From Deltaproteobacteria bacterium (GTDB taxonomy: Bacteria > Desulfobacterota > GWC2-55-46): DNA of 64,000 bases. The stretch is taken from positions 1-64,000 of the forward strand of contig JACOUO010000003.1 in assembly GCA_016177845.1 (NCBI GenBank), given 5' to 3'. Shown here in pieces: positions 40,942 to 42,720 of this stretch (positions are counted from its first letter, which is position 1; each line of letters starts with the position of its first letter). The notes beneath the pieces were generated by a model. It was not told the DNA's origin, made no database searches, and saw only the letters and a list, made by a program, of their open reading frames with translations. The position numbers were made by a program, and so were the translations under genes.

Positions 40942-41065
40942 GGCTTGTAAAGAATTTGCAAGTATAATATAAAAAAGGATTAAAAGCATTTTGCCTGAAT
41001 AGTTCGGATATAATTATATTAGAACTGAAGCCGGTGTTCAAAAACCGGTGAATAAGGAGGCTTTT

Positions 41066-41290
41066 ATGCGTGAAAAGGTAATAATCTACGGGAAAGACAC
41101 TTGACCTTATACCACCGCGGCCCGTGAGGATTACGCAAAAAAAGGTTATGAGGTCGAATACATAAATGTAAGGGCGTCCGAGGAAAACCTTAAGAAGATG
41201 CTCAAGGTAGGCGGAGGCAGCCGCACTGTGCCCGTGATTATCGAGGGCGGAATGGTGGTGCACGGCTTCGGAGGCACTTGAGGTATCTGA
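41066..41290 (+). CDS. Glutaredoxin-like selenoprotein with two in-frame UGA codons (Uxx-star type)
   Basis: An ATG at 41066 behind AAGGAGG (five-base spacing) opens a 74-residue protein if UGA at 41102-41104 and 41279-41281 are read as selenocysteine; the real stop is UGA at 41288-41290. The first gives IIYGKDT-U-PYT, replacing the CPYC redox motif of glutaredoxin. The middle has TVPVIIEGGMVVHGFGG, the cis-proline and glycine motifs of that fold. The second gives U72-G73-I74-stop, the Sec-x-x-stop ending known from one glutaredoxin-like selenoprotein family. Reading through both codons restores one fold without frameshift, so this is not a pseudogene. A SECIS-like hairpin follows at 41297. 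Ordinary gene finders would miss it. Confidence 0.88.
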
Positions 41291-41296
41291 AATCAA

Positions 41297-41314
41297 GCCG
41301 GCAGGTCTGCCGGC
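41297..41314 (+). promoter_or_regulatory. SECIS-like hairpin after the second UGA
   Basis: GCCGGCA, loop GGTC, TGCCGGC: seven perfect pairs. The loop starts 22 bases after the UGA at 41279 and begins with GG. That fits the bacterial SECIS rule of a G in the first two loop bases about 16-37 bases past the UGA. The apex GCAGGTCTGC is the same as in the E. coli fdhF SECIS as I recall it. There is no T-run after it, so it is not a terminator. Confidence 0.8.
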
Positions 41315-41826: not shown

Positions 41827-42720
41827 ATGCACACAATCGAGAGAATAAAGGCCCATTACAGGTTCACTGAGCAGGATGCCAGGTTACTGAGCGGCCTTAA
41901 GCCCATTATGGAAAAATACCGCGACAATTTTGTCGCGGAGTTCTATAGCTTCGTCAAGGAATTTGAGGACGCGCATAAGTTCCTGAAAGACGATGCTACC
42001 ATAAGAAGGCATCAGGAAGCCCTTAAGATATGGTTCATCAATCTTTTCTCAGGTCATTACGGGCACCATTATCTCGCTGAGCTTGAAAAAGTCGGTATGG
42101 CGCATGTCAGGATTAACCTTCACGCGCATTATGTGAATGCCGCCTTCCATTTCGTAAAGCTCTACTGTCAGGATGTGCTGCGCAGGGAAATAATCGACGC
42201 AGACGAGAGGACACACCTCGAACATGCCGTTGAGAAGATATTGGATATAAACCTCGATGTTTTTACAAGTTCATACATCGAAGAGGAAAAGAAGTTCTTC
42301 CTCTCCCAAAAAGTAGAATCCAAGCTGATACAACTGGCAAACCGCTTTTCCCATGGCCTTAACCTGATACTGGTCCTCGGGCTTGTTCTTTTGGGTTTTA
42401 TGGTCATGGGACTGTTTGCCTATGATGTCACGCACATACTCGACAGCGGCGACCTTGAAAAAGGCCTCCTCTCCACCCTCGGAAGCCTTCTCATGCTCTG
42501 GGTGGTAATCGAGCTTATGGATACTGAGATAAAACATCTCAAGGGCGGCAAGTTTGCCATAAAGGTTTTCATAAGTGTCGCGCTTGTGGCAGTGATAAGA
42601 AAGATACTTGTGGCAAGCCTTAAGCACGACGCAGGCGCATTTGAGGCGCAGCTTGCGCTTATTGCCGCTGTTGCGGTACTTGGCGCGGTCTACTGGCTTG
42701 TCTCAAAGGTAGATTCCTGA
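41827..42720 (+). CDS. Protoglobin-PsiE fusion (haem sensor with membrane domain)
   Basis: This 297-residue protein has two parts. Residues 1-165 resemble a protoglobin/globin-coupled-sensor domain, with GMAHVRINLHAHYV containing the expected proximal haem ligand H93. Residues 175-297 hold about four membrane helices (LILVLGLVLLGFMVMGLF, then TLGSLLMLWVVIELMDTEI) with a pattern like PsiE phosphate-starvation-inducible proteins. There is no kinase, cyclase or methyl-acceptor output, so it may be a gas or redox sensor acting on the membrane domain. The ligand and output are unknown. It lies 21 bp after ndk. Confidence 0.75.
   Translation: MHTIERIKAHYRFTEQDARLLSGLKPIMEKYRDNFVAEFYSFVKEFEDAHKFLKDDATIRRHQEALKIWFINLFSGHYGHHYLAELEKVGMAHVRINLHAHYVNAAFHFVKLYCQDVLRREIIDADERTHLEHAVEKILDINLDVFTSSYIEEEKKFFLSQKVESKLIQLANRFSHGLNLILVLGLVLLGFMVMGLFAYDVTHILDSGDLEKGLLSTLGSLLMLWVVIELMDTEIKHLKGGKFAIKVFISVALVAVIRKILVASLKHDAGAFEAQLALIAAVAVLGAVYWLVSKVDS

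Follow-up and report, generated by a model that had tools for sequence, protein, structure and literature searches.

How are three UGA codons with two meanings told apart on one short mRNA? The question is raised by a small plus-strand gene in the window, the 64,000-nt stretch of DNA analysed here, for which an initial annotation had described a frame starting at ATG 41066 with a strong ribosome site and two in-frame UGA codons. This description was borne out: the Shine-Dalgarno sequence AAGGAGG, as read from the sequence (41054–41060), lies 5 nt before the start codon, and the gene (41066–41290) comprises 74 codons and a stop, with UGA at codon 13 (41102–41104), the predicted selenocysteine (Sec) of a UPYT active site, and at codon 72 (41279–41281), the predicted Sec of a C-terminal U-x-x-stop. 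The third UGA, 9 nt beyond the second, is the stop codon (41288–41290). Translation from ATG 41066 gives a product of 74 residues (MREKVIIYGKDTUPYTTAAREDYAKKGYEVEYINVRASEENLKKMLKVGGGSRTVPVIIEGGMVVHGFGGTUGI) with U13 and U72, in which the final UGI is directly followed by the TGA stop. Immediately 5' of the Shine-Dalgarno sequence there is also a short inverted repeat (CCGGT/ACCGG, 41031–41049). As set out below, we consider it very probable that the gene encodes a two-Sec glutaredoxin-like protein in which each Sec UGA has a hairpin of its own and the stop UGA terminates because of its position.

The gene belongs to an already catalogued family and is neither hidden nor the founder of a new one. 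In NCBIfam profile searches the window protein matched NF041114, "UXX-star selenoprotein family 1", with 110.1 bits (cut-off 72) over positions 1–70 of the 70-position profile, and the superfamily NF041212 with 90 bits (cut-off 66); both profiles were matched by all 62 aligned homologues. It has the two features of family 1, a C-terminal U-x-x-stop and a Sec codon in a UxxT motif (here UPYT), with U13 and U72 at the family positions, and it shows no notable difference from the family at the protein level. The same family appears in a 2026 review (PMC13188914), which calls it "Distant Grx-like protein 1 (UXX-star selenoprotein family 1)", gives it a UxxT motif and two Sec and refers to the GOS survey of 2008. 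Thus, of the proposed "hidden two-selenocysteine protein", the two-Sec part stands and the word "hidden" does not, since the family was already present in NCBIfam and in this review.

Consistently with the glutaredoxin-like assignment, an AlphaFold2 model built from a 62-row alignment had a glutaredoxin fold (pLDDT 89), matched PDB structures with Z ~10 over residues 1–70, and placed residues 72–73 in an extended bridge. Glutaredoxin 3 and the NrdH redoxins share the thioredoxin-type fold (Z about 9–10) and give weak sequence matches; in contrast, they have a Cys active site and lack the C-terminal Sec tail, and the window protein falls below their curated cut-offs (42.9 bits against 90 for glutaredoxin 3, TIGR02181). 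The protein may have a redox role, possibly with the two selenols (U13 and U72) acting together; alternatively it may bind metal, as the review suggests (PMC13188914).

The genome itself (100% complete) contains the genes expected behind a bacterial selenoprotein, namely selA (584 bits), selB (342), selD (370) and tRNA-Sec (65), all above cut-off, so that the search for selA, selB, selC and selD proposed in the initial annotation recovered the Sec machinery. selD has one in-frame TGA and is a selenoprotein gene in its own right (L018, C16:133544–134464); downstream of this TGA stands a perfect hairpin of 9 bp whose apex is GCAGGTCCTGC.

We searched 395 genomes of the phylum, which yielded 99 matches above the cut-off, most of them with two in-frame TGA codons, and compared the DNA of 90 homologous genes from the phylum. 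Site 1 was UGA in 79/90 and Cys in 11/90, with no other residue; site 2 was UGA in 90/90, a count to be read with the search in mind, which required U at this site and could therefore miss Cys-only members. The random residues that would speak against two Sec sites were thus absent from the 90 homologues, and the family match, the full Sec machinery, the restriction of site 1 to UGA or Cys and the UGA at site 2 together support a two-Sec glutaredoxin-like protein; Sec would accordingly be inserted at both predicted sites. An in-frame TGA usually signals decay, and a pseudogene or a sequencing error at the UGA codons was hence considered as well; this reading is refuted by the homologues and was rejected as exceedingly improbable, given that dozens of independent genomes have UGA at these two positions, with exchange between UGA and Cys only, and that the Sec machinery is present. 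Two loci showed individual features: an insertion precedes the C-terminal GGTU tail in both L106 and L108, site 1 reads CPFC in L106, and in L108 the usual stop after U-x-x is missing. In several relatives, including the ones closest to the window, the gene has nth on one side and ndk on the other, and ndk is followed by a protoglobin-PsiE gene. The corresponding gene in the window (41827–42720) codes for a protein in which a protoglobin domain is joined to a PsiE-like membrane domain, and genes related to it are found close to the UXX-star gene at several loci. Elsewhere in the genome, the stretch G000:C9:76-858 recurs along contig C9 every 250 nt or so, which suggests a tandem repeat, and a copy of part of it is found at the beginning of contig C18.

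Behind the stop codon lies a hairpin (41297–41314, plus strand) that the initial annotation had proposed as the SECIS of the second UGA, with an fdhF-like apex 22 nt after that codon and past the stop at 41288, a description that we confirmed. This untranslated element has a 7-bp stem (GCCGGCA/TGCCGGC), a GGTC loop and the apex GCAGGTCTGC; its predicted folding energy (-14.3 kcal/mol) was equalled by 0/200 dinucleotide shuffles (z -3.7). The loop is 22 nt from Sec UGA 72 and 13 nt from the stop UGA, and the base of the hairpin 15 nt and 6 nt, respectively; the two codons thus differ by 9 nt in their distance from the hairpin, not by the seven first reported, with the stop the nearer. The apex motif by itself carries no weight, because TGA followed by GCAGGTC has 195 matches across the genome. 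Rfam was uninformative, as SECIS_1 gave zero matches in the genome search and was equally silent in every control genome, and a scan of the locus returned four matches, all far under their gathering scores.

Comparison across the family was more telling, and it supported a SECIS beyond the gene's own stop codon family-wide. A post-stop hairpin of -7.5 kcal/mol or lower was present in 64/90 homologues, against 6.7% of shuffles. Among the 88 homologues in which the gene ends two codons past the second UGA (Uxx-stop; 88/90), strong post-stop hairpins whose loop begins with G occurred almost only at loop starts about +17 to +25 after the Sec UGA, within a family-wide range of 16–25 nt, and the hairpin sequences were distinct in 79 of the 88; therefore, the structure is kept while its letters change. 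A transcription terminator having nothing to do with Sec is a very improbable reading of 41297–41314, and we rejected it because in relatives the loop keeps a constant position with respect to the Sec UGA: a pattern scan does mark a terminator-like site at the hairpin, on the minus strand, whereas the plus-strand hairpin is followed by A rather than T, and the flanking nth and ndk genes are both on the plus strand. The SECIS assignment also has close precedents. The E. coli fdhF SECIS shares the apex GCAGGTCTGC and a loop spacing inside the 16–37 nt reported between bacterial Sec UGAs and SECIS loops (PMC13188914), but it lies within coding sequence, whereas the window hairpin lies past the stop codon. 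In E. coli, a SECIS of this apex placed in the 3'-UTR of rat TrxR1 directed the incorporation of Sec close to the C-terminus of that protein (PMC3834832); that engineered system resembles the window gene in its C-terminal Sec, untranslated SECIS and apex, yet it is artificial and has one Sec, whereas the window system is natural, carries a further Sec upstream and ends in a UGA stop. In the papers that we read, we found no description of this hairpin placement and stop-codon use for UXX-star genes, and the GOS paper (PMC2398784) addresses neither stop codons nor C-terminal Sec.

A hairpin so placed stands downstream of two UGA codons, and the codon that ends the gene varies within the family: the Uxx-stop homologues end in TGA (47), TAA (22) or TAG (19). 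Since TGA ends 47 of them, compared with 23/59 long ORFs in 30 of these loci, UGA is not avoided as a stop; at least 23 switches between TGA and non-TGA stops were counted on a tree that is itself poorly resolved. The loop lay 7–14 nt from the stop UGA in every one of the 42 UGA-stopped genes whose hairpin is strong. Hairpin spacing was similar in UGA-, UAA- and UAG-stopped genes and thus shows no visible adjustment to the stop codon in use.

These distances point to spacing as the likely answer to how the three UGAs are told apart, with the discrimination itself presumably made by the ribosome. UGA 72 would be served by the strong hairpin past the stop codon, at bacterial spacing, whereas the stop UGA, whose loop is 13 nt away and hence under the 16-nt lower limit, would be read as a stop, probably because the hairpin follows it too closely. 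As the mRNA tunnel of the ribosome occludes about 11 nt (PMC4513850) and the hairpin base is 6 nt from the stop, the ribosome would melt about five of the seven stem pairs when the stop codon is in the A site; with the ribosome at UGA 72, the hairpin would still be folded. Early SelB binding is thought likely (PMC4513850), and SelB might remain bound between the UGAs. This possibility, together with the SECIS lying downstream of the third UGA, could favour partial decoding of that codon as Sec, giving an extended triple-Sec form. Such decoding is very improbable, in view of the 7–14 nt spacing in all 42 strong-hairpin genes, under the 16-nt limit, of the UAA or UAG that replaces the third UGA in 41 relatives, and of the variable sequence past it. 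Termination at the third UGA by its position is therefore the reading that we retain.

The first UGA requires a different element. The initial annotation had offered a weak CAC/GTG stem as its only one, but this was in the wrong register: the constraint among homologues falls at 41117–41136 on the plus strand, inside the coding sequence, where the pattern GCG..CC[CGTGA]GG..CGC places the loop CGTGA (41123–41127) 18 nt past UGA 13. In the window species this is a weak stem (z +0.5 when folded alone) broken into 2 + 3 bp, and minimum-energy z-scores against synonymous shuffles were about equal in Sec and Cys forms, with no discrimination between them. Codon choice was far more informative. The Ala codon at +16–18 was GCY (GCC/GCT) in 79/79 Sec forms compared with 109/229 other Ala codons (p 6e-21), the wobble position of the next Arg codon was G or T in 78/78 Sec forms compared with 152/248 elsewhere (p 1e-14), and GCG stood at the same Ala codon in 5/11 Cys forms but in 0/79 Sec forms (p 1e-5), these p-values counting related sequences as independent and thus overstating certainty, although the contrast is large. 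Several Cys forms retained Sec-type codons. Positions +18 and +24 could pair (CG, TA or TG) in 79/79 Sec forms, against 67 expected, and the outer pair +15/+30 swaps G-C and A-U among the close relatives of the window gene; in one clade the hairpin is apparently in another register (CTCGTAG-GGA-CTACGAG). This wobble-position constraint, which relaxes in some Cys forms, indicates that site 1 has its own in-frame SECIS-like element, and UGA 13 would thus be served by a short hairpin within codons, also at bacterial spacing.

The site-1 hairpin is weak and the nearest relative of the window gene (80% identity) has Cys at site 1, and decoding at UGA 13 could therefore be inefficient. Taken further, only UGA 72 would be efficiently recoded, UGA 13 would mostly yield a 12-residue stub, and the gene would be a remnant or a selenium-regulated switch. 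The stem that folds no better than shuffles in the window species and the Cys of the closest relative are what this reading can draw on; we consider it unlikely, as the window gene retains both Sec-linked synonymous choices (GCC and CGT), the site-1 UGA is maintained in 79/90 relatives, and the remaining protein is conserved with full profile coverage. At the level of sequence comparison, which supports the family assignment, the Sec machinery, a suitably spaced hairpin for each Sec UGA and the acceptance of UGA as a stop codon, the case for Sec at both sites is the stronger one.

For the family as a whole, the 47 UGA-stopped genes and their 41 UAA- or UAG-stopped relatives form a natural series on the SECIS distance needed for UGA recoding, and the synonymous-codon signature at site 1 makes a weak in-frame SECIS recognisable by comparison where folding energy misses it. 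UXX-star genes may well, with somewhat better than even probability in our judgement, be a natural and repeated case in which a Sec UGA and a stop UGA only nine nucleotides apart are discriminated by hairpin distance alone, probably through melting of the SECIS by the ribosome.
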